This document shows, in pieces, positions 1 through 20,861 of a DNA stretch of 20,861 nt. Each line of letters starts with the position of its first letter. Position 1 is the stretch's first letter. Under the pieces are notes generated by a model. It saw only the letters and a program-made list of their open reading frames with translations. It was not told where the DNA came from and searched no databases. Both the position numbers and the translations under genes were made by a program. Source of the DNA: a virus; IMG/VR virus record IMGVR_UViG_3300025009_000977, positions 1 through 20,861 of that record; one strand, given 5' to 3'.

Positions 1-3000
1 CAGGAGAGAGTAGGACTCACGCCCGCGCACATAGACTCTCTCCTGGCTAAGCATGATAGTGGGACCGTTGAGACTGCACAATTCCAGTCCCTCTTAGACT
101 CCGCACCCAACGATACTATACGCGCAGGTCTACTTGCTACTGCAGCAGGTGCTAAACACCTCTCAATCGAGAACGCCGAGACTATACGTAAGACCGCAGA
201 AGCTAAAGCAAAAGAGCTTTCACACGCTAATGCTTTAACTTTAGCTGAGTCTCGGCGTACCGAACTCGCTGCTAAAATCGATCTTACACCTGACGAGGCC
301 GTTCAGCTTACTCTCCTTAATAAAGCTGGCGTAGACCCAATAAAACTCGGCCGCGCACTCAACAAGACTATAACAGAGGTCCCAGATTCTGCTAAGCCTG
401 TTCCTCCGCCGAGTACTGACCTTTTACACTCAGACGCCAAGACTCTTATTGATGCTCGTGCTAATGAGCTTGCTAACAAGAAGTTCAGAACAACTAGCGA
501 GAAGCATGAGCTTCTTAAGCTCGGCAAGATTCAGTCCGGTGGGTATAGGATTGGCGATGTAGCAAAGACTCTTGGTCGTACGGTCCTTAAAGATCCTAAG
601 GTCGCGACTCCTGTTACTGAGACTCCTGTTGTACCTAAGAATTACTTAACCGCACAGCCGGGTGACATAATTACGCTATACCGCGGTGAGAACTCAGAGA
701 ATACTAAAGACGGTGAATGGTGGACTACTGATAAAGCTAAAGCAGAACGGTACGGTGTAGTAACGGAAGTATCGCTTCCTGCTGAAGTAGCCGCAGCTCA
801 TGCGGCGATGGGACATCATGGTCCAGACGAGTATGTCTTCTCAGGTAAACGCCCTGCTGAACTCGTCAATACACAGACTACTGCTACTCCTGAAGACATT
901 GAAGCGCAGATCGCGGAGCAAGAAGCACCCGCTCCCGAGTTTGATCTTCTTGCTAATGAAGCTGGATCTGAGGTCAATGACATTATGTATGACCTCGCTG
1001 ATCAAGCCGTCGATACGCAGGATCAAGCGGATACCCGTGCTCGAGCTCAGAGATTCAAGACTCTCCAAGCTGCTGTACCTAACAACACCCCCTCCGCCTC
1101 TGCTGAAGTAGTACGCGCACCGCAGGGGGTTACTTCTACTGAGACCCCGACTCTTAAAGCTGCTAAGGCTAAAGTAGCAAAGAATAAAAAAGCCACAGCA
1201 CCTAAAGTCGCTAAGCCCAAGGTTGTCAAGCCTAGGGTTGCCAAAGTTGAGAAGCCCGCTAAAGCCGAGACGCCTAAGGTCGTCAAAGCGGAGAAACCCG
1301 TTAAAACTGAGAAGCCCAAAATTGAGAAGCCTAAGGTCGCAGCTAAAGCAAAAGCTGTTGAGGAAAAGAAGACTGCTAAAGAGACTACTAAAGTCTTGAA
1401 GCAGAGTAATGACGAGCGCGCAGCCACTGCAGCTGCGAAGGCTACTGCTGATGCGTTAGCTAAAAATGAGTCCCAAGCTAAGAAGGACGCCGAGAAAGCA
1501 AAGGCCCGTGAAGAGCTCAAGGCGCGTATAACCCCTGAAAAATATAATGAGTATCTCTCTCTGGTTGACGAGATTACGAGCTATACTACTAAGATTAACA
1601 GGGCTGCTCAGAAAGGTGACTTCCAAACGGCCAAAGCCTTAGATCAGTCTAGAAAGATAGCTCAGGCTCGTGTAGCAGCTATAAAAAGTGTACAAACGAC
1701 CGTCACTGATCAGAAAAAAGATACTAATACGATTGATCAGGCCTCTTCGAAAGTTGAGCAAGACTCAAATGTACAGATTCAGAAAGGGCAAGAAAAAGCG
1801 AGTGTAAATCAAGGCTCGCAAGGTAGTTCAGCAAAAGATGTAGAGTCTGAGTTGCAGACCAAACTCGGTGACACTTGGACCTCCCTCAAAACGCTCGGAG
1901 CAGCTAAGAAACCCGGTGGTGTAACTATAGTTAATACTGTTCCAGAGGCTCTTGAAGCAATAGGCTCTACTGTTTCAAGACGGAGTGCTAAAGATACTAC
2001 GACTCAAGCGCTGTATAATCCTAACACCGGGTTATCTGCGATAATAGCTAACAATATTGAGGTAGCTGACGCAGAAGGAATACTGCTTCACGAAGCTAGT
2101 GTTCATGCAATAGAGAATTCTACCCTGGATATGGAAGCTCTGGCACTGTTTAATAATAATAGGCCAACTCCATTTATGCAGTACGTGGAAGATTCACTCC
2201 GCGCAGGTGGGCTCCTTGATGAAGATGGTAATGCTACTGACGCTAATGAGGTGCGCGCCTACATAGTTGAGCATGCTATTAACCTCAGTCCTCAAAAGAC
2301 TGTTAACCAGAAGTTTTGGCAATGGCTCAGCTATAATCATCCTAGGATCGCCGCGTACTTGAAGAAAGTAGCTGCGGCTCTTGGGTCACACTTTAAGAGT
2401 CTAGGTGTCAAGATAGACGAGGGACAGTTAAACGAGGGACAGTTAAACGCGGCAGTAGCTAGTCTTGCAAAAGAAGCTAGGGATGCCCTGGGTAACGCTG
2501 TAAAGACTAAAGACGCGCGGGCTGAAGTCCCTGTCGTAGCATCTGTTAAGGGCTATAAGGAGAACGAAGACGGTGTCTTAGTCAAAGGCGAAGCTCCAGT
2601 AAAACCTGAGAACGTAATACCTCTGAGCTCTGTTAAAGCAGAGAAACTCTCTAAGCAAGACGCCGAGGCTCTTAAAGTCCTTAAAAACTTATTTCAGAGT
2701 AGACATAAGACTCTCGAGGAAGCCGCAGCTGAGGTTATAGATGACTTTGTTATCTCTACGTCAAATCCAGCCATGCGTAAATACTATGAGCTTACGCAGC
2801 GGATTAGTAGTTATAAGAGAGACAAGAATAACCAGACGTCAACAGTTTTTGATCGGATAGTTAGCTCACCTGAGTTTTACTTCCCTAAGACTTCAGCGGG
2901 TAAAAAGATTCTGCAAGCCGCTGTTGATGACTCCGATATACGGTACCGTGCGCAGAAACAAGTGCTTGGTGATTTTCTGGATAAGGCGAACTTGATTCTT

Positions 3001-5577
3001 AAAAAGAAGCCTAAGGTTTACGCCGCAGTTAATAAGTATTTACTTGACACTGATAAAACCGGAGTAGGCTTCAAGCTTCGTAAAAATGGTGAGACCTGGG
3101 AGGTTAGAGACCGTAAAGATAAAGTCGTCGCTACACATATGGACGAGGGCGCTGCAAATGCAGATCTTGTTAATGCTGAGCAGGAATGGCTTAAGACGCA
3201 GCTTATATCAAAGGATGCGCGGGATCTGATTCTCGAAGCCCGGCTTCTTACCAACAGAGCTTTCGATATTCTTATTGCGGATATGCGTAAGCAGATTACT
3301 CGAGCTACTGAGAATGGACTTGACGAGCCCACCGCTATGTTCGTAGACGCGGATGGCAAGACTAATGAAGTATCGCTTACCGAGCTCATCGCTAATATGG
3401 GTGATCTTCGAGGTACCTATTTTCCTCGTGAACGCGTAGCACGAAACTTTCATCTCGTAGCTGAACAAGAGGGTAAGCCTAGTATCCTCGAAACATTTGA
3501 TTGGCACTTCGTTGAGAATGAACTTGGCAATAACCGTGTTCAGATGATGAAGCGTGCTTTTAATAACGCAGCTCCTGCTGGCCGACGATACCAAGAGTTA
3601 CTGAAAGCAGGTTACAAGGCTGAGAATATTAATATCAAGCCCGTGACTTCACCGACAGAGCTCTTATTTGACCTTCCAGGTGTTCTTGCTTCTCTCGACG
3701 CGATTTTTAGTTCTGCTACTGAGAAGATGAATATCGACAGTCTCGAAGAGTCTGATAAACTCTGGATGGGTACTGTTGATAAAGCCCTAGCTCTACGCGT
3801 TGCTGATATCTATAAGGCTAAGGGTAACTTTAGCTCTAGGATGTCTCGAGCTGATAAGCTATGGGAAGGGTATGAGCCTGACATGATTCGTGCTCTTACA
3901 AGCTACGCTTCACGAGTATCTACGGGCGTAGCCAAGAGAACTACAGCTCGTAAAATGCTTGAGGCCCTAACTGGTCGAGGTGTATCCTGGAAGCAATACC
4001 AAGCACAAGCAGAGAAAGCTAAACAGAAGGTGACTTACCAGGATTACTTAGCATATGTTAAGTCTCAACGGGTAAGCCCGACACAGCAGAAGATGATGTA
4101 TGAAGACCTGCGTCAGTACATCAAGTACTTCTTATCACCAGATGACGCGCTTGGTAGAGCTATAGGTTACTTTAAAGCTGCTACGGTTCTTAAGTACCTC
4201 GGCTTCCGTGTAGGCTCGGCCGCAGTTAATATGACAACCATGGCTATGTCCGTACCCGCTACGATCGCCGGACATACCGGGGCTAATCTGTCAACAGTCT
4301 TTAAGAATATCGCTAGCGCTAGTAAGTCATACCTGGCGTACAAGCATAACCAGTTAATACAAAGGGGATATAAGTTTCTTGGTAAGCCTATGTTGGTGAA
4401 TGAAGCTGACAACGCCATCCTGAATACGATTTATGATAATGGGTGGGCCGAGGCACAGTTCAATCATGACGCAGCTCAGGCTATGACAGGTAAAGTCGGC
4501 GAGTCTATGAATAACCTCATGGCCGCTGCAATGTATATGTTCGGTGCAGTTGAAGAAGCAAACAGAGCTATAACGATTCTTGCAACTTACAAGTCTCAGC
4601 CTGCTACCCTGGGTATGGGCGATAAGCTGGAGCTCTCCAAGCATACCTCGGATAGAGCTCACGGCATTTACGGTAAAGCTGCGAAGCCTTGGCTGGTGCA
4701 GCGGTATAGATTCTTGGATGCTACGTATACGTTCCAGAAATTTCAGCATACGTACCATCTGAATATGCTCGAGCTCTTCGGAAAGTATAAGTCCCCTAAG
4801 GCTGTAGCGTTTATGGGATTGATGCCACAGCTGGTAGCAGGAACCTCAGTGACCGCAACTCTCGGCTTTGCTATAGCTTCTCTGTTTGGCGCCGATGATC
4901 CAGAAGAAGAATACACAACTCTTCTGGCTAAGCTCCTTGGTGATAGTGACTTTGCTGAGTCATTTGCCAAGTTCGGTGTAGTAGGCGCTGCTTTGGGTGT
5001 TAACCTTAAAGGCTCACTTGAAGTTAAGTCGCCGTTCCCGTCTACCCTAAGCGAGCTCTTCGGTGCGCCACAGGCTCTCGTGACGGACACTATAGAGGGT
5101 ATAGGCGCTATATCCAGGGGTGAGGGTAGAAGAGGCGCTGAACAGCTTTTGCCTACCGCTTTAGCAGGACCGCTGAAAGGTCATCGAGAAATGACTGAGG
5201 GCGTCACCAAGAGTAATTACGCGCCGGTCTTTGATCAGGGTAATGTAGTTAAAGCGTCTCCAGTAGACTTCGCTAAACGGTTTCTTAGTTTTAATCCTAC
5301 TGAGGTTTCTGATATACGAAACACCGCATGGAGGGCAGACGAGATTCGGCGTAAGTATACTACAGCGCGGAGTAAAGTCTCAGCTCGGTATAACAGACTT
5401 ATTATCCAGAGAGTACCTGGAGATGATGCTCAGTGGGCTGAATTCTGGAAGTCGGTAGCTCAGTATAACAAGAAAGCGGCTCATGCTAATCCTAGATACA
5501 TGATTCCATTCATTGACACGGATTGGCTCTCAGGTCAAGACAAGCGTAACTTCAAGCCTAACAAGTACACGAAGTAG
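1..5577 (+). CDS. Giant polyvalent virion (probably ejected) polyprotein, 5'-partial
   Basis: The frame is open from base 1 with no stop, so the gene starts outside the window; the ATG at 808 is internal. The visible part is 1858 residues. Seen in order: an ADP-ribosyltransferase-like segment with Arg at residue 228 (LYRGE), WWTTD at 240-244 and Glu at 277; a Lys/Ala/Pro-rich histone-H1-like linker at about 381-460; a charged, probably coiled-coil stretch to about 570; a zincin motif HEASVH at 697-702; and a YFPRERV motif near 1139. Hydrophobic stretches at about 1391-1430 and 1601-1632 lie in a C-terminal third that resembles the large polyvalent-protein-associated domains of phage polyproteins. 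Such proteins are usually virion components thought to enter the host with the DNA. The family call is confident; the separate enzymatic activities are inferred from motifs only. Confidence 0.8.
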   Translation, partial: QERVGLTPAHIDSLLAKHDSGTVETAQFQSLLDSAPNDTIRAGLLATAAGAKHLSIENAETIRKTAEAKAKELSHANALTLAESRRTELAAKIDLTPDEAVQLTLLNKAGVDPIKLGRALNKTITEVPDSAKPVPPPSTDLLHSDAKTLIDARANELANKKFRTTSEKHELLKLGKIQSGGYRIGDVAKTLGRTVLKDPKVATPVTETPVVPKNYLTAQPGDIITLYRGENSENTKDGEWWTTDKAKAERYGVVTEVSLPAEVAAAHAAMGHHGPDEYVFSGKRPAELVNTQTTATPEDIEAQIAEQEAPAPEFDLLANEAGSEVNDIMYDLADQAVDTQDQADTRARAQRFKTLQAAVPNNTPSASAEVVRAPQGVTSTETPTLKAAKAKVAKNKKATAPKVAKPKVVKPRVAKVEKPAKAETPKVVKAEKPVKTEKPKIEKPKVAAKAKAVEEKKTAKETTKVLKQSNDERAATAAAKATADALAKNESQAKKDAEKAKAREELKARITPEKYNEYLSLVDEITSYTTKINRAAQKGDFQTAKALDQSRKIAQARVAAIKSVQTTVTDQKKDTNTIDQASSKVEQDSNVQIQKGQEKASVNQGSQGSSAKDVESELQTKLGDTWTSLKTLGAAKKPGGVTIVNTVPEALEAIGSTVSRRSAKDTTTQALYNPNTGLSAIIANNIEVADAEGILLHEASVHAIENSTLDMEALALFNNNRPTPFMQYVEDSLRAGGLLDEDGNATDANEVRAYIVEHAINLSPQKTVNQKFWQWLSYNHPRIAAYLKKVAAALGSHFKSLGVKIDEGQLNEGQLNAAVASLAKEARDALGNAVKTKDARAEVPVVASVKGYKENEDGVLVKGEAPVKPENVIPLSSVKAEKLSKQDAEALKVLKNLFQSRHKTLEEAAAEVIDDFVISTSNPAMRKYYELTQRISSYKRDKNNQTSTVFDRIVSSPEFYFPKTSAGKKILQAAVDDSDIRYRAQKQVLGDFLDKANLILKKKPKVYAAVNKYLLDTDKTGVGFKLRKNGETWEVRDRKDKVVATHMDEGAANADLVNAEQEWLKTQLISKDARDLILEARLLTNRAFDILIADMRKQITRATENGLDEPTAMFVDADGKTNEVSLTELIANMGDLRGTYFPRERVARNFHLVAEQEGKPSILETFDWHFVENELGNNRVQMMKRAFNNAAPAGRRYQELLKAGYKAENINIKPVTSPTELLFDLPGVLASLDAIFSSATEKMNIDSLEESDKLWMGTVDKALALRVADIYKAKGNFSSRMSRADKLWEGYEPDMIRALTSYASRVSTGVAKRTTARKMLEALTGRGVSWKQYQAQAEKAKQKVTYQDYLAYVKSQRVSPTQQKMMYEDLRQYIKYFLSPDDALGRAIGYFKAATVLKYLGFRVGSAAVNMTTMAMSVPATIAGHTGANLSTVFKNIASASKSYLAYKHNQLIQRGYKFLGKPMLVNEADNAILNTIYDNGWAEAQFNHDAAQAMTGKVGESMNNLMAAAMYMFGAVEEANRAITILATYKSQPATLGMGDKLELSKHTSDRAHGIYGKAAKPWLVQRYRFLDATYTFQKFQHTYHLNMLELFGKYKSPKAVAFMGLMPQLVAGTSVTATLGFAIASLFGADDPEEEYTTLLAKLLGDSDFAESFAKFGVVGAALGVNLKGSLEVKSPFPSTLSELFGAPQALVTDTIEGIGAISRGEGRRGAEQLLPTALAGPLKGHREMTEGVTKSNYAPVFDQGNVVKASPVDFAKRFLSFNPTEVSDIRNTAWRADEIRRKYTTARSKVSARYNRLIIQRVPGDDAQWAEFWKSVAQYNKKAAHANPRYMIPFIDTDWLSGQDKRNFKPNKYTK
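2419..2448 (+). repeat. 15-bp in-frame tandem duplication in the polyprotein gene
   Basis: The unit gagggacagttaaac occurs twice head to tail (2419-2433 and 2434-2448). It duplicates five residues (EGQLN). The copies are identical, which suggests recent slippage in a linker-like part of the polyprotein just after the metallopeptidase region. Confidence 0.9.
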
Positions 5578-6065: not shown

Positions 6066-7823
6066 ATGAATATAATAGCTCCAGAAAGACCTCGTAGATT
6101 AATGACCAATGGTCGTGGATCCGGGGTCTATAATGGTTTACGTAAAGTTGGCGGTTATCCATCCGACCTGCTCTACTACTACTCCCTCTCGCCGACAGTC
6201 ACAGACGCCAACGCCCTCCGCCCACGCAAGGGTGACCCACTCACTTACAGTGAGACCGCAGACACCCCAGACCGTGACGGCGTAGACTCCCCCGGACCGC
6301 ATGTCTATTTCAGCCCTGAAGGTTATCTCTGGGGCATCGGAGGGCAGGTTGTGGCAGGGCAGGAAATCAGCAAGGTAATGACGGATGCGGAGTTGGCTGC
6401 GCTTGGCTCCGGTATTTATACACAGTTTATTCCACACTCTGAGCCAAGTTTGTTGGTGCAGTTTTCGTCTCAGATCGGCATTTCTATTGCGGCGTCTGCT
6501 GGAGAGATGGCAGCGCTTGCGGAAAACGTGATTGTTTTTGGGGACAATTCCACTCAAAGGCTGGCGTATCAGGACATAGACAACGTGTCAACATCCCAGA
6601 TTATCTCTGCATACGTGTCAATGGATGACGGGAACGCGCCAGTTATCGGGAGTTCTATATCGACAGGGGATTTTTCCCTTGTAGCAAACTCAACAATACT
6701 TGCTATCGGCGTAACTATAACGCACGTCTCAGGGAGTATTTACCGTGTGTCAGCAACCCGGGCAGCTACTGGAGTCGGGGCTAAATTCGGCATTGCTAAA
6801 TATGTAGGGCAATCTGCGCGGTCGTTTAAAATCACCAGGATCAACGTCACACGTACCGGAAGTTTGGAAGAGTATGTTAAAACGATTGGTGTGGCAGCGA
6901 CCGGCGGCAAAGCAGTGATGACGGTATCCTGCCTGATCGTTCCAGGGTTCAACGGCGCAGATCTTCCTGACAATACGTTCAATATCCCTGTGATGGCAGC
7001 AAACGGAGTTGCAGGGTATGTGCCTATAGGTATGGCCAAATCAGGGTCAAGCATGACCGTGGTATCCAGCGATGGCGTGTCCTTCGCAAGCATGGCAGCA
7101 TCTGTCAATGACGGCGAACCTCTCCTTGTCTGCATGAGGACGAGTGCTGACGGGACACAGTTTCAGGTCGGCTCAAGGCTCTACAATCCTGATATGTCAC
7201 CTGACGATGCGTCCATAGTTTGGGGAAGTCTGACAACCTCTGACGGCCAGTTTGACCCGATTGAGAGTTTTCAGATATTCCTCGACACGCTACATGAAAC
7301 CTACGTGCGGATGATTCAGATCTGGAACAAATCATGCACGGATGCTGAGATACTGAAATATGTGCCTGGGGTGCAGGAGGTTGAATTTCCAACTGAGGAC
7401 CTTGTGGCTGCATTTTGGGTCGCAAACAATTTGGTTGATAGTATCGGCTTATTGAGCATTACCATGACAACCGGAACGATTGCAGATTTGCCGAATGCAA
7501 CGTGGGGCTTCCCTTCCGATGCGGCCACACTACAAGCTGACTCAGACCTCGGAGGTGATGCCTTCTTCGACTCAGCTAATGCGATGGCTCCGATAGTCAG
7601 GTCAGGCGCTGAGTGGTACGCGCTGCTCAACGAGACACACGTCTGGATTGGGTTTCATCTGACGAGAGGCGGGATTGTTATCTATACGAACAGCATGGCA
7701 GCTAAAGAGACTCAGATACTGAATTACCTTGGACGGTATTCTCCCGTTGTGAGCTTCAACGAGCTGACAGAAGAACAATTCAATGCGCTGACAGAAGAAC
7801 AATTCAATAATCTGAGTATTTGA
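6066..7823 (+). CDS. Tail fibre / receptor-binding appendage protein
   Basis: The product has 585 residues, with an AAGGAG site about 6 bases before the ATG. The first 25-30 residues (RPRRLMTNGRGSG region) are basic and match the base use of the upstream phage genes. The rest is Gly/Ser/Thr-rich, predicted beta, with jelly-roll or carbohydrate-binding character: a module at about 185-265 (AYVSMDDG ... GSIYRVSATRA) and a LamG-like stretch at about 290-420. The C-terminus ends in two tandem 8-residue repeats beginning LTEEQFN. A conserved N-terminal anchor joined to a variable binding part is typical of phage fibres. Position after the virion polyprotein and before a lectin and a beta-helix protein supports host-surface binding. 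The exact fold is not shown by sequence alone. Confidence 0.7.
   Translation: MNIIAPERPRRLMTNGRGSGVYNGLRKVGGYPSDLLYYYSLSPTVTDANALRPRKGDPLTYSETADTPDRDGVDSPGPHVYFSPEGYLWGIGGQVVAGQEISKVMTDAELAALGSGIYTQFIPHSEPSLLVQFSSQIGISIAASAGEMAALAENVIVFGDNSTQRLAYQDIDNVSTSQIISAYVSMDDGNAPVIGSSISTGDFSLVANSTILAIGVTITHVSGSIYRVSATRAATGVGAKFGIAKYVGQSARSFKITRINVTRTGSLEEYVKTIGVAATGGKAVMTVSCLIVPGFNGADLPDNTFNIPVMAANGVAGYVPIGMAKSGSSMTVVSSDGVSFASMAASVNDGEPLLVCMRTSADGTQFQVGSRLYNPDMSPDDASIVWGSLTTSDGQFDPIESFQIFLDTLHETYVRMIQIWNKSCTDAEILKYVPGVQEVEFPTEDLVAAFWVANNLVDSIGLLSITMTTGTIADLPNATWGFPSDAATLQADSDLGGDAFFDSANAMAPIVRSGAEWYALLNETHVWIGFHLTRGGIVIYTNSMAAKETQILNYLGRYSPVVSFNELTEEQFNALTEEQFNNLSI
7763..7808 (+). repeat. 24-bp tandem repeat at the fibre C-terminus
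   Basis: A 24-bp unit starting gctgacagaagaacaattca is present at 7763-7786 and again, for 22 bases, at 7787-7808. It encodes LTEEQFNA then LTEEQFNN. The identical copies lie directly before the stop codon. Confidence 0.9.
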
Positions 7824-11272: not shown

Positions 11273-12115
11273 ATGTTAGTTGAAAAAGCCATAGAATTAT
11301 ACATGGAGTATCTCAGAAGTAATACTCGACCAAATACTGTCAGGGCGTTTTATTATACTCTTAGTAGATTTAAAGCGGTCTTCTCAGGCCAAGATTTAAA
11401 TAATGTTAAGGATATTCAGATTATAGAATTTATTCATGATATATCCCCTGATTGTTCTTCTACAACTAAGAATACTAGGGTTAGCGCTCTTCGTGCATTC
11501 TATAACTTTATTAATGAAGTCGCGGATGACGGATTAGTTAATCCATGTATGCGCCCAATTGTACGTAAAATGTTTAAAGTCTCTCGTGGGTCTTCACCTA
11601 AGCTTTTAGATAAGGACTTAATTGATGAAATTATTTTTAGAACTATTAATGAACGTGACCGTTTGATTTTAGAACTTATGGGCCGAGCTGGAATGCGTGT
11701 AGGTGAAGTTCTTAATGTTCGTCCAAGTGATATAGATTCAGACGCCTCAACAATAGCAATCGCTGAGCCTAAGAGTGGCAGAGTTGGTGAAAAAGTTTTT
11801 ATTACTAAGAAACTTTGTGGTAAACTTCAATCTTATATAACTAAACGGCCGTCAATCAAAAATAAAATTATTTTTGATATAAGTTATTCTACTGCGCATC
11901 GTATGGTAAAGCGTTCTGGATTATTGGTTAATTCTAAATTAAGACCTCATGATCTACGAAGACATGCTGCTACACAGGCAAGTAGAAATAGTATCCCTTT
12001 AGAAATAGTTTCAAAGGTTATTTTGAGACACGCAGATATATCAACAACCCAGCGATACTTAGGTACTGTTGACCCAAGTGAAGCGAGCCGTTGGATTGAA
12101 CATTTAAATAGGTGA
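11273..12115 (+). CDS. int: Tyrosine recombinase / phage integrase
   Basis: The product has 280 residues, with AAGGAG 8 bases upstream of the ATG. A SAM-like core-binding region (about 1-95) is followed by a catalytic domain with the full set: Arg142 (GMRVGE), Lys167 (EPKSG), His226 and Arg229 (RPHDLRRH), His253 (LRHAD) and the nucleophile Tyr262 (TTQRYLG). It is compact, more like XerC/D-type or simple phage integrases than lambda Int with its arm-binding domain. The gene is AT-rich compared with the fibre genes before it. It indicates a temperate lifestyle or a resident prophage. No excisionase or obvious attachment core was found next to it. Confidence 0.9.
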   Translation: MLVEKAIELYMEYLRSNTRPNTVRAFYYTLSRFKAVFSGQDLNNVKDIQIIEFIHDISPDCSSTTKNTRVSALRAFYNFINEVADDGLVNPCMRPIVRKMFKVSRGSSPKLLDKDLIDEIIFRTINERDRLILELMGRAGMRVGEVLNVRPSDIDSDASTIAIAEPKSGRVGEKVFITKKLCGKLQSYITKRPSIKNKIIFDISYSTAHRMVKRSGLLVNSKLRPHDLRRHAATQASRNSIPLEIVSKVILRHADISTTQRYLGTVDPSEASRWIEHLNR

Positions 12116-15690: not shown

Positions 15691-15972
15691 TTATATTTCA
15701 ACTCGGTTAATGAGATACTTAATCTGCTCCAGGGTAACATGCATTTCATTTAAGGGCTCCGCGGTGCTTCTAAAGTACTCAGAACTTGGCGCAAAAAATG
15801 GTGGCGACGCTTCAGAGCATACTCGAGGATCTTCAACGATCAAGCAGCTTACGCGGGCCTGCACGAGGTCACGAATTTCAAAAATAAATCCACGCATCTC
15901 ATTTAACTTACGTACAAACTGCGCGCCTTCAGTATCTTTAGGATTTAACATTGGTCTACCTGCTTCTAACAT
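15691..15972 (-). CDS. Hypothetical 93-residue protein, last gene of the minus operon
   Basis: An AGGAG site lies just before the ATG, and the start overlaps the dCMP deaminase end by 17 bases. The sequence looks mostly helical (VRKLNEMRGFIFEIRDLVQ and a C-terminal LEQIKYLINR), with two Cys and no membrane helix. It may form a small helical bundle. Unrecognised; perhaps an accessory factor for the nucleotide-metabolism genes it follows. It ends 25 bases from the terminator hairpin. Confidence 0.6.
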   Translation of the reverse strand: MLEAGRPMLNPKDTEGAQFVRKLNEMRGFIFEIRDLVQARVSCLIVEDPRVCSEASPPFFAPSSEYFRSTAEPLNEMHVTLEQIKYLINRVEI

Positions 15973-16414
15973 ACCATTCTCCTAGTAGCTCAGGTTCAAT
16001 AAATACTACGGTTAGTTTTGCGTCCTCAATTAACTCAACAACAAACTCTTGATTCCATGATGACTCAGGGTCTATTGGTAGAGTCACTATAGTCTTGATC
16101 CTCCCATTTTGAATTATGTTTCCGAGACACTGCGTACACGGTAAGCAGGGATAGATATAAATAGTATCCCCTATACCGTCAGCAGAAATAAGACAGTTCA
16201 CTTCAGCATGAACCATCAACAAGTTCTTCAGCTCTTTATCAGCCAATCTATATGGCGTGTCCTCTATACCTGTAGGAAACCCATTATAGCCAACGCCTCG
16301 TATTCTATGACCCTCGGTGATGACTGCTCCGACTTTCTTATTGGGGTCCTTTGACCAGAGAGATACATGCCGAGCGAGCTGAAGATATCGGACCCTCCAT
16401 TTATCAATTTGCAT
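15956..16414 (-). CDS. dCMP deaminase (deoxycytidylate deaminase)
   Basis: The product has 152 residues. It has the cytidine/deoxycytidylate deaminase zinc centre: His69 and the proton-shuttling Glu71 in HAEVNCL, and Cys90/Cys93 in PCLPCTQC. A further phage-type feature is NGFPTG near 44-49. The enzyme converts dCMP to dUMP, feeding thymidylate synthesis for phage DNA replication in the cytoplasm. It starts one base after the nucleotidyltransferase stop (TGATATG), so translation is coupled. Length and motifs are normal for the family. Confidence 0.92.
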   Translation of the reverse strand: MQIDKWRVRYLQLARHVSLWSKDPNKKVGAVITEGHRIRGVGYNGFPTGIEDTPYRLADKELKNLLMVHAEVNCLISADGIGDTIYIYPCLPCTQCLGNIIQNGRIKTIVTLPIDPESSWNQEFVVELIEDAKLTVVFIEPELLGEWYVRSR

Positions 16415-17179: not shown

Positions 17180-18544
17180 TTAATCTCCTATTCCAGTTGT
17201 TTGTTTTAAATAATCCAGTAGAGCGTTCTGCCCTTTCAATTTCATCTGCAGTGCTTTCATAATCTTCTCATCCACGGTACCCTTAGCAACAAGATGATGA
17301 AATATACAGACGTGCTTCTGGCCTTGTCTCTCTATCCTGGCATTTAATTGCAGGTAATGTTCTAAACTCCACGGCAACGCGTACCATACCAAGAGGTGTG
17401 ACCCCATTTGAAGGTTGACACTGTGCGATAGTGAGGCCGGATGACATATTAAGAGGGGCACCTCACCTCTGTTCCACGCATCAACAATGGCCTTGAACTC
17501 TTCAATTTTAGATCCACCCACAATAGCCGGTGTTCCAGGGAATGCTTTAAGAAGCATGTCCAGCTCAAACCTAAACTGGATAGCACAAAGTATTCCCTGG
17601 CCATTAGCCTCTTCAACCAGGGATTTTAGTATCTCGAGCTTCTCTGTGTGGATAACTTCATAGTTCCGTTTCTCATCAATGTATAGTCCTCCCTGGATAA
17701 CTTGCCTGAGCTTCATAGACAAGGACGCTGCGAAGTTAGCGGTAACCGTCGTCTCTTCACTCAGCTTAAGCATTAACTCTTTCTCAAAGGTCTTGATCTT
17801 CTGCATCACCGGAGCGGAGAGCTTGACACTTATGATATTGTCAACCCGTCCAGGCATGGTCAGATAATCTGCCGCTTCGAGTCTGAATGTTATATCGGAC
17901 ACGCGCTTATGAATCTCTACTTCGTGTGCGGGTGACTGCAGCTCCCAGCAAAAGATGCTATACGGTTTTTGCCGAAAGAATGTTTTACGGTACGTAGTGA
18001 TGTCTTTACCAAGCCTCTTGCCTCCGTCAAGAAGATAATATTGGGACCATAGATCGAGTAACGAGTTAGGCGCAGGTGTGCCACTCAAAATCAAGATAAA
18101 CTCTCTACATAAGTCCTTGATGTGCTTCAAGGACTTAAACCGCTTTGTAGCATGACTCTTGACCATGGAACCCTCGTCAAGAATCATCGCCTTAAACGGC
18201 AAAGGCCTCTTAGCTTTAAACATCCGCTTTAGTTCTTCAAAGAGCCACTGTATGCCATCAAAGTTAATGATATACAGATCAGAGATTCCTGTAAACTTCT
18301 TACTAGGACCATGTAGTACTTGATACGTCAACTCGGGCGTCCACTTCTCGATCTCATCTGGCCAAGTAGTCTTTACAGCTCGTAGCGGCGCAATAACCAG
18401 GGTGGGTACCCGTACTTCCCGCACCACTTCTAAAGATATCCGCGTCTTACCTAACCCCATATCGATCATTTGATACACAAATCTACGAGCTAAACAGAAC
18501 GCTATTGCCCGATCTTGATATGCGTGTAATGGTGGGGTCGTCAT
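17180..18544 (-). CDS. SNF2-type (SF2) DNA helicase/translocase
   Basis: The product has 454 residues. Helicase motifs in order: I DMGLGKT (28-34); Ia around IAPLRAV (51-57); II DEGS (123-126, a variant of DEAH); III LSGTPAPN (153-160); VI NARIERQGQ (401-409). Two RecA-like lobes are present without extra SNF2 insertions or accessory domains, typical of compact phage versions. It likely remodels DNA-protein complexes or branched DNA in replication or recombination. The start overlaps the HNH gene stop as ATGA. Membership is certain; the exact step is not. Confidence 0.92.
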   Translation of the reverse strand: MTTPPLHAYQDRAIAFCLARRFVYQMIDMGLGKTRISLEVVREVRVPTLVIAPLRAVKTTWPDEIEKWTPELTYQVLHGPSKKFTGISDLYIINFDGIQWLFEELKRMFKAKRPLPFKAMILDEGSMVKSHATKRFKSLKHIKDLCREFILILSGTPAPNSLLDLWSQYYLLDGGKRLGKDITTYRKTFFRQKPYSIFCWELQSPAHEVEIHKRVSDITFRLEAADYLTMPGRVDNIISVKLSAPVMQKIKTFEKELMLKLSEETTVTANFAASLSMKLRQVIQGGLYIDEKRNYEVIHTEKLEILKSLVEEANGQGILCAIQFRFELDMLLKAFPGTPAIVGGSKIEEFKAIVDAWNRGEVPLLICHPASLSHSVNLQMGSHLLVWYALPWSLEHYLQLNARIERQGQKHVCIFHHLVAKGTVDEKIMKALQMKLKGQNALLDYLKQTTGIGD

Positions 18545-20033: not shown

Positions 20034-20220
20034 CTAGAACATGAATAGGAGCCTTGTTTCGACAGTTTGAACAAACCTGTACGTCGTCTATCCGCTCAAC
20101 TCTTATATGTAATCCCAGATTCTCAAAGAGTGCTCGAATCTTTACAGCGTGTGCGTCACAGCAAAATATAGCTCGAGTTGGTGTATGCGCAATAAAGTAC
20201 GCAGGATATTTGTTGCTCAT
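20023..20220 (-). CDS. 65-residue Cys/His protein, unknown
   Basis: The start overlaps the ligase stop (ATGA). Cys20, Cys21, His24 and CSNC (Cys50, Cys53) suggest one zinc site. The last six residues (VLESV region) are encoded by the arm of repeat copy B, whose TAA supplies the stop. No family recognised. Confidence 0.6.
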   Translation of the reverse strand: MSNKYPAYFIAHTPTRAIFCCDAHAVKIRALFENLGLHIRVERIDDVQVCSNCRNKAPIHVLESV

Positions 20221-20861
20221 TTATCTACCCGGATGGTCTTGAGTCTTGGATGACGAAGAGAACCATCCGGAGTCTCTTCGTGGTAAAGGGTCTCCGCAGT
20301 CTTACCGAGATACTCACTTTGGTTAGCCCAAATAGCATCTCGGAGGACATCGCTAAACCCGCCACCTACTTTAACAGCGGTACCATTATGGTCAACGATG
20401 ATACCGCCTAACGAGCCGACGTACTTGCCTTGGCCTTCGAAAAAACCAATGATGGGTAAATCTTTGGATAGCACATTCTTCAACTTTAACCAGTCTGAGG
20501 AACGCTTGGTTTGGTATATATGATTTGGTGTCTTTAATACAAGGCCTTCATAACCATTGTCTAAGGCTTTCTGAAACGTAGCAGCGACCTTGTCTTTGTC
20601 CTTAACCAGGATATGTTTAACGAACCCGATATGAGGCTCAGGAAGATGGGACTTGATATTCTCGAGCTGTGACAAACGTATATGAAAGGGGTCTTGTGTA
20701 AATGGAACGTCGAAGATATTATAGACCGCGGTAGGACTGTCCGCGAAAGACCGGAGCGCACCGCTCGATGTTTGGAAATGCTCGCCAGGTACCATCAGCT
20801 CACCATCAAAAGGCCAATTGATTCGAGATAGTGCGTCAGTGATATGGCCTACACCCTGGAT
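20217..20861 (-). CDS. ATP-dependent DNA ligase, 5'-partial
   Basis: The frame is open to the right edge, so the N-terminus with the nucleotide-accepting lysine lies outside; 214 residues remain. Motif III DGEL (visible residues 19-22), motif IV EGLVLK and motif V WLKLK are intact. They are followed by an OB-fold part ending HPRLKTIRVDK. The enzyme seals nicks with ATP during phage DNA replication. It is the most upstream gene seen in the minus operon and overlaps the next gene by ATGA. Confidence 0.92.
   Translation of the reverse strand: MQGVGHITDALSRINWPFDGELMVPGEHFQTSSGALRSFADSPTAVYNIFDVPFTQDPFHIRLSQLENIKSHLPEPHIGFVKHILVKDKDKVAATFQKALDNGYEGLVLKTPNHIYQTKRSSDWLKLKNVLSKDLPIIGFFEGQGKYVGSLGGIIVDHNGTAVKVGGGFSDVLRDAIWANQSEYLGKTAETLYHEETPDGSLRHPRLKTIRVDK

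Follow-up and report, generated by a model that had tools for sequence, protein, structure and literature searches.

The viral stretch IMGVR_UViG_3300025009_000977 from IMG/VR, analysed here over all of its 20,861 nucleotides (the window), begins inside a giant open reading frame (ORF) that encodes two predicted enzyme-like domains: a module of about 70 residues that resembles ADP-ribosyltransferases (ARTs) and carries an R-[S/T]-E triad and, downstream of it, a zincin-like domain with an HExxxH motif. On balance we favour the reading that the product is a virion protein of the polyvalent kind that enters the cell at infection, in which the miniature ART-like cassette is accompanied by a zincin that would process the chain. 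Polyvalent proteins that combine ARTs with zincins, including zincins of the HExxxH form, are already known from passages of the survey by Iyer, Burroughs, Anand, de Souza and Aravind 2017 (PMC5512222). What we consider new is the mobile, mini-ART-like cassette spread over different classes of ejected proteins, because the literature searched holds no description of it. That literature, on phage ARTs and ejected virion proteins, was covered mostly at the level of listings and describes no compact mobile module there; the 2022 survey of viral ARTs (PMC9503650) does not describe it in the passages covered, and the H-Y-D type ART of phage vB_PunP_Y3 in a passage of PMC11654794 does not concern it. 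If active, the module would provide a small, easily made enzyme for testing how phages act on the cell at entry, and its sequence could serve to pick out more ejected proteins in phage genomes that lack annotation.

A conserved module in otherwise unlike giant proteins

The initial annotation of the window had proposed three short motifs spaced like those of ARTs, and all three are found where it placed them, in the plus-strand frame that runs from nucleotide 1: LYRGE at residues 226-230 (nucleotide 676), WWTTD at 240-244 (nucleotide 718) and DEYVF at 276-280 (nucleotide 826). The Lys/Ala/Pro linker that it described between these and a zinc motif is likewise present. To this stretch, residues ~214-290, we added relatives from viral contigs (5, 9 and 18 loci in three overlapping scans that included the window's own contig type) and aligned 16 module sequences, the window among them (alignment A6; numbers such as L003, L006 ... 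L132 label the compared loci). A weak match of 40 residues in L035 was left out, and the effective sample is smaller than 16 because L033 and L034 are near-identical and L009 and L010 are close. R228, G229, W241, D244, A248, G252 and G271 are invariant. The motif residues, on whose conservation the earlier proposal had been staked, are kept: R228 in 16/16 sequences, Ser or Thr at position 242 in 16/16 and E277 in 15/16, while H697, E698 and H702 of the zinc motif are invariant among their own relatives. Judged from the alignment, conservation of the triad is more than chance.

Copies of the module with 33-63% identity occur in giant proteins from other phages; these proteins are otherwise little alike. 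When 15 such proteins were compared with the window protein (five of them, L009, L010, L021, L028 and L031, incomplete and ending at the end of their DNA), one module stretch was the sole match at E <= 1e-3 in every case; it fell within residues 214-299 in 13 of the 15, and extended upstream to residue 179 in L021 and to residue 120 in L013. The ratio of nonsynonymous to synonymous substitution rates (dN/dS) in the module is 0.12 for L012-L013, 0.14 for window-L010 and L027-L012 (dS near 1.8, near saturation) and 0.27 for L009-L010; the pairs L028-L030 (zero synonymous changes), window-L025 and L025-L010 (both saturated) gave no usable value. The module is under purifying selection. Because it is conserved, is the lone stretch shared among unlike hosts and has low dN/dS, we regard it as a genuine domain, maintained by selection, that occurs in proteins with little else in common. 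Scans of Pfam, PHROGs and NCBIfam gave no curated-level match to either the module or the zincin domain of the window protein; the weak PHROGs matches to the module, phrog_4776 (E 3.5e-4) and phrog_30882 (E 2.4e-3), are both of unknown function.

The proteins that carry the module fall into several groups (Table 1). A host-against-host comparison of 13 sequences (matches of at least 50 residues, E <= 1e-6; L033 entered as a 107-residue piece only) found several host families with only the module in common. L021 and L031 match the N4-type virion RNA polymerase family (phrog_2206, E 0), as does L014 by full-length similarity to them; the window protein itself lies outside this family. The module of L021 sits between stretches common with cultured polymerases; the alignment with the phCDa polymerase nominally crosses the place of the module, without its motifs, and the [YHFW]RG motif is absent from the fetched parts of the phCDa and LUZ7 polymerases. 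gp22 of phage phiKT, annotated as an internal virion protein with an endolysin domain, carries the module together with an SLT domain. The single 2461-residue ORF at L027:4943-12325 has the mini module near residue 463 and, at residues 800-940, a Pfam ART-PolyVal domain, and this chain is thus predicted to hold two different ART-like domains.

The module also has standalone relatives. The standalone protein of L015, whose match to the window protein covers residues 214-251 only, is matched by 107 phage records, 102 of them of Mycobacterium. YRG, SWT and ExE motifs are present in the three mycobacteriophage members read (LeBron gp117, Dylan gp81 and a Silverleaf protein), all of which are annotated as hypothetical. 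Profile comparison with hhalign links the standalone family to the first 31 columns of the module (prob 95%, E 3.5e-8), a score reached by 0/40 column shuffles. These standalone members are small proteins; all other hosts of the module are very large. In the taxonomic class of the genome of L019, KptA occurs in 9/289 genomes and the standalone protein of L019 in 1/385, the source itself. We regard the standalone proteins, from their motifs, as candidate unannotated R-S-E ARTs.

Resemblance to ADP-ribosyltransferases

An AlphaFold model of the module (m110475dd35cf) has a predicted local distance difference test (pLDDT) score of 80.8 and a predicted template modelling (pTM) score of 0.68, with core blocks near 90. 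The model places the Arg on strand 1, WWT on strand 2 and the Glu on the last strand, the arrangement of an R-S-E ART (Arg on strand 1, Ser/Thr on strand 2 and a later-strand Glu), with the triad residues on three separate strands. When the model was aligned with VIA-align, KptA/Tpt1 RNA 2'-phosphotransferases took ranks 1-12 (best match Z 3.7, root-mean-square deviation (rmsd) 3.2, 61 residues aligned), followed by PARPs, ExoS and diphtheria toxin; these ranks refer to the best 41 of the 56 chains with Z of at least 2, among 999 aligned, and families outside the VIA list may match as well. We take the 41 rows to be of the ART superfamily or ART-like, a fungal NADase in two rows excepted. The order of strands and helices is similar by eye to that of KptA/Tpt1. 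The active-site residues of KptA/Tpt1 are a different set. In the Foldseek search of the PDB, C3 or PARP13 structures made up 14 of the best 50 rows, in a list that mixes in NhoI, antibody chains and ribosomal proteins. A viral library gave a Gordonia phage protein as its first match (E 5e-3, prob 1.00); a Mycobacterium phage Silverleaf protein named ADP-ribosyltransferase ranked sixth (E 0.14, prob 0.60).

Several observations weigh against the module being a working ART. A VIA Z of 3.7 over 61 residues is below what unrelated models often reach, and Foldseek gave zero PDB matches below E 1. The hhalign comparison of the module with KptA returned prob 1%, the real score being reached by 1/40 column shuffles, and the same comparison found no link between the standalone family and KptA. 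Zero Pfam or NCBIfam ART models match the window protein; Pfam ART-PolyVal (PF18760) in particular is absent from it and matches 1/12 records, at the other site of L027 described above, and a sequence search of solved structures gave zero relevant matches. With about four strands, the module falls short of a full ART core. The Glu is lost in the relative L014 (GPRHRVF), Pro stands two positions ahead of the Glu where Glu or Gln would be expected, and the profile link to the standalone family spans the first half of the module, with the Glu outside the aligned part. Against the favoured reading as a whole, two of the hosts, L006 and phiKT, hold the module with no HExxH or HExxxH site.

Some of these points would suit a different reading, in which the module is a conserved but non-enzymatic or NAD/nucleotide-binding ART-like core, a pseudo-enzyme or a docking or packaging element, that travels because it helps packaging or assembly. 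The very small size of the module, its low number of strands (about four), the missing KptA profile link, the loss of the Glu in L014 and the occurrence in very large proteins, the standalone family apart, are all compatible with such a role. Yet R, W, S/T and E are among the best-kept positions, a pattern like that of an active site, and three mycobacteriophage standalone relatives are themselves small and keep YRG/SWT/ExE; we consider this alternative unlikely. Less likely still is that the module is an unrelated small fold whose ART likeness is a coincidence of short motifs and a common alpha/beta arrangement: the VIA Z of only 3.7, the Foldseek E values above 1 and the NhoI, antibody and ribosomal rows would fit it, but the VIA rows listed are nearly all of the ART superfamily, from several distinct families, and a triad that was chosen without alignments lands on well-conserved columns and three separate strands.

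We accordingly describe the module in graded terms. An ART-like fold is likely, though not proven, on the model; catalytic activity is less probable than the fold. What stands of the earlier ART-like claim is a conserved triad in a recurrent module and a small fold whose nearest matches are nearly all in the ART superfamily; the structural scores are low (Z 3.7 at best), and the comparison with KptA gave no profile link. We use the label ART-like, and do not call the module a member of the superfamily, because it has no profile match to a known ART family (the profile comparison being with KptA only): we propose that it may work like an ART and claim membership of no known ART family. A comparable case is phage T4 Alt, described in passages of PMC5512222, an R-S-E ART that is injected with the DNA, as is proposed for the window protein, and whose triad has the same residue types. 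Alt is a separate protein, the window protein has no Pfam ART match, and the likeness is one of residue types.

The HExxxH zincin-like domain

The initial annotation had also placed a zinc site of the HExxH type at HEASVH, residues 697-702 (nucleotide 2089). The place and the kind of domain hold up and the motif does not, since HEASVH is H-E-x-x-x-H. The HExxH reading is ruled out, and 0 HExxH motifs occur in the 1858-residue protein (one was present in 50/2000 shuffles). In passages of Iyer et al. (PMC5512222), zincin-like peptidases are the commonest domain of polyvalent proteins and one set of them has HEXXXH. Because such HEXXXH peptidases are already described there, we class the predicted zincin as a new member of a known polyvalent-protein peptidase kind, of the HExxxH form.

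Relatives of this domain are distant. The zincin region found only the window's own contig among viral contigs, and 8 matches among phage records, of which two, USP_25 and USP_18, reached E 2e-3 while six stood at E 4 or worse. In the window protein and the relatives scanned, the domain had no Pfam match at cut-off. In a narrower comparison, the zincin of the module host L025 is 25% identical to that of the window over 101 residues (E 7e-4), and given this resemblance the two proteins may share a zincin domain besides the module. The L025 zincin in turn matched 10 phage records at E <= 0.1, of which 8 were taken, without the duplicate Vibrio phage douglas record and Bacteroides phage BKO1-TP3. 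In the resulting alignment of 11 sequences, the window included (A3), N685, H697, E698, H702, E750 and A753 are invariant. Eight of the 10 relatives have HExxxH: HEAVGH (L025), HEVVGH, HEVVAH, HELITH, HETIAH, HEILRH, HEAVAH and HEVVGH; the other two have HExxH (HEMGH and HEMTH), which the aligner fits with a gap.

We assembled a larger alignment with the DNA-encoded pattern HEVVGHxG[LF], taking 80 of 86 matched stretches. Of these, 74/80 had at least 95 residues downstream, and a loose E-x-x-x-A motif followed in 56/74, some at odd distances, and not in 18/74. Dropping short ORFs, near-duplicates, L101, L114, L056 and L079 left 40 loci, and 36 of the 40 were used (L051, L073, L078 and L083 were left out for long inserts), for 38 sequences with the window included (A5). 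H697, E698, H702 and E750 are invariant in A5; because 36/38 sequences were found through the HEVVGH pattern, only E750 is an independent result there. The third zinc ligand that the initial annotation suggested seeking is therefore probably Glu750, in NEVRAY, invariant in 11/11 and 38/38 aligned sequences. A functional precedent is found in dipeptidyl peptidase III (M49), in which HEXXGH and a later EEXR(K)AE(D) bind zinc, according to a passage of PMC5667867. Many members of the phage zincin family likewise have HExxxH and a later EExxA, by eye and with no claim of membership, and in the window HEASVH and NEVRAY stand at two of the five conserved regions of the M49 definition, these two being the ones compared.

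The AlphaFold model of the domain (m14a08e13b734, pLDDT 72.5) has strands at 8-11, 37-40 and 45-49, and its helices 55-70 and 115-127 carry the HExxxH residues and Glu750, as in the HEXXXH set. In this model of moderate confidence, a three-stranded sheet, an N-terminal helix and two C-terminal helices are predicted, which is the composition of a zincin core. The best VIA match is the anthrax lethal factor peptidase domain (Z 6.4, rmsd 4.1, 137 residues), and lethal factor, PPEP, Zmp1, IrrE and ArdC give zincin matches at Z 6.4 to 4.3; the rows also hold non-peptidases, for example p120RasGAP at Z 4.6. All of the first thirteen Foldseek rows are lethal factor (best E 0.09, prob 0.85); a profile match to lethal factor is also given for the N4 polymerase's domain in a passage of PMC5512222. 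The structure predictions called for by the initial annotation returned ART-like and zincin-like nearest matches for the two regions, at a Z of 3.7 and 6.4 at best.

The best Z of the window zincin, 6.4, is within the chance range, with none at or above 8. The domain could also be a degenerate remnant without activity, retained only for structure or packaging: HEASVH lacks the family-consensus Gly before the second His and the GL that follows, for which reason the domain could be inactive; and it is only 12-21% identical to the other A5 rows. Against this, His697, Glu698, His702 and Glu750 are all kept, as are Asn685 and Ala753, and dipeptidyl peptidase III, in the same passage of PMC5667867, shows that HExxxH and a later Glu can form a working zinc site. 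An inactive remnant thus seems to us the less probable state, although it is the alternative that we take most seriously.

Two giant zincin-bearing proteins are probably misannotated in the records compared: L038, "oligopeptide ABC transporter" of Pseudomonas phage Rollin, and L043, "putative portal" of Achromobacter phage CF418P1.

A proposed role at entry

Upstream of the giant ORF, on the same strand, are genes for the terminase large subunit, a P22-type portal (Pfam E 5e-104), a Phage_capsid_3 head protein, a head-closure protein and virion proteins. Ejection-protein genes of podoviruses usually lie in the region that matches the position of the giant ORF. From this gene order and from the relatives of the module, which include N4-type virion RNA polymerases and the phiKT internal virion protein, we infer that the window protein is ejected, and the earlier description of an ejected-type polyprotein gains indirect support from both. 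The chain also combines several unrelated domains in ~2190 residues, the two predicted enzyme-like domains and a PLxRFG/DarB-like C-terminal part, which is a trait of polyvalent proteins. Like the giant multidomain phage chains in passages of PMC5512222, with ART, zincin-like peptidase and LPD domains and presumed delivery at infection, it has an ART-like and a zincin-like domain and would reach the cell at infection; unlike them, its module has R, S/T and E with no Pfam ART-PolyVal match.

In the scheme that we favour, the giant protein of this tailed phage with a P22-type portal would be packaged in the virion and enter the cell along with the DNA. The module, through R228, T242 and E277, would modify a target of the host or the phage at the expense of NAD+. 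In the zincin, His697, His702 and Glu750 would bind zinc with Glu698 as the base, and the domain would most likely cleave the giant protein, either inside the head or once in the cell, and free its working parts. Passages of Iyer et al. (PMC5512222) propose self-processing that takes place prior to packaging, within the head or once inside the cell, and describe the N4 polymerase as packaged unprocessed. The simplest account would be an effector that arrives with the DNA, acts early and, in many hosts, is released by a zincin of the same chain. Both enzyme activities, and their targets, are put forward here as predictions.

The zincin could instead be an effector that cuts host proteins rather than its own chain, a possibility named by Iyer et al. 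in a passage of PMC5512222 and in keeping with the closest solved structures, which include peptidases that act on other proteins. An HExxH or HExxxH motif after a hydrophobic residue is present in 11/15 module hosts, the window included, where shuffles of the 15 would give 0.37 in total; the 15 are partly related, and in L028 and L030 the site may belong to another family. In L009 and L010 the site reads GHEWHH. Such sites inside long chains fit processing, the present data are compatible with either reading, and we hold host cutting to be the rather unlikely one.

A broader reading of the module is possible, and we offer it more tentatively. The R-[S/T]-E module of ~70 residues, which as an ART would be among the smallest of the superfamily, may be a plug-in effector, taken up time and again by unrelated phages into their first-ejected protein, be it an N4-type virion RNA polymerase, a T7-like lysozyme ejection protein or a DarB-like/LPD38 polyvalent protein, to act within the first moments of infection, often freed by the zincin of the same chain.

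Source contig and neighbouring features

By the ORF list and translation, the window holds the 3' part of the giant ORF, its 5' part lying beyond the window start. A second record, IMGVR_UViG_3300025000_000012 (L003; 62,969 bases), agrees base for base with the window in both stretches compared (7463 and 1210 bases), except for the window's first four bases. There the frame starts 332 codons upstream of the window, with window nucleotide 1 at gene nucleotide 997, and the full protein therefore has ~2190 residues. The two ends of the 62,969-base contig overlap by 127 bases that correspond to window 1088-1214, inside the giant ORF, and because its ends share these bases the contig looks like a complete circular assembly opened within the giant gene. 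When cultured phages were searched with all 1858 residues, only the C-terminal region found matches (16 records; Table 1).

Table 1. Features of the window, and of the compared loci that carry the module or its standalone relatives
Feature	Position	Strand	Basis or remark
3' 1858 codons of ~2190-residue ORF, probable polyvalent/ejection-type virion protein	1..5577	+	ATG L003:4405 in identical contig
Mobile mini-ART-like module, residues ~214-290 (~70 residues)	640..870	+	Alignment A6, pairwise comparisons, AlphaFold model m110475dd35cf
LYRGE, R228, putative ART motif 1, strand 1	676..690	+	R kept 16/16; model strand 1
WWTTD, T242, putative ART motif 2, strand 2	718..732	+	W241 16/16, S/T242 16/16
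DEYVF, E277, putative catalytic Glu, last strand	826..840	+	E 15/16; His in L014
Lys/Ala/Pro-rich linker	~1153..1400	+	Sequence
HExxxH zincin-like domain, residues 634-830	1900..2490	+	Alignments A3, A5; model m14a08e13b734; structural matches
HEASVH, His697, Glu698, His702, HExxxH zinc motif	2089..2106	+	Sequence, alignments
Glu750 in NEVRAY, predicted third zinc ligand	2248..2250	+	Invariant 11/11 (A3), 38/38 (A5), window included
C-terminal region, residues 1359-1771, with relatives among phage proteins called PLxRFG or "DarB-like antirestriction"	4075..5313	+	tblastn, 16 phage records, E down to 3e-12
Tyrosine integrase	11273-12115	+	Pfam; downstream of giant ORF
Cytidine/deoxycytidylate-type deaminase	15956-16414	-	Pfam
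SNF2-type helicase	17180-18544	-	Pfam
ATP-dependent DNA ligase	20217-20861	-	Pfam
Hosts L021, L031, L014, N4-type virion RNA polymerases	L021:4355-14227, L031:4373-14227, L014:5463-16052		Virion RNA polymerase type; module ahead of part shared with cultured relatives
Hosts L009, L010			One family; LPD1 and helicase found in L010
Hosts L025, L012, L013, L024			One family; LPD38 found in L025, L012
Host L027			Separate ART-PolyVal domain as well
Host L030			Own group
Host L006			LPD38
Host L033 (phiKT)			Own group; gp22, SLT domain
LeBron gp117, standalone	L131:1420-2157		YRG/SWT/ExE
Dylan gp81, standalone	L132:1489-2214		YRG/SWT/ExE
L019 standalone protein	L019:4837-5643		WRG, SWT, ExE
L015 standalone protein	L015:139-795		YRG or WRG, SWT, ExE

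Elsewhere in the window, a short repeat, LTEEQFNALTEEQFNNL, closes a 585-residue protein at 7764-7820.
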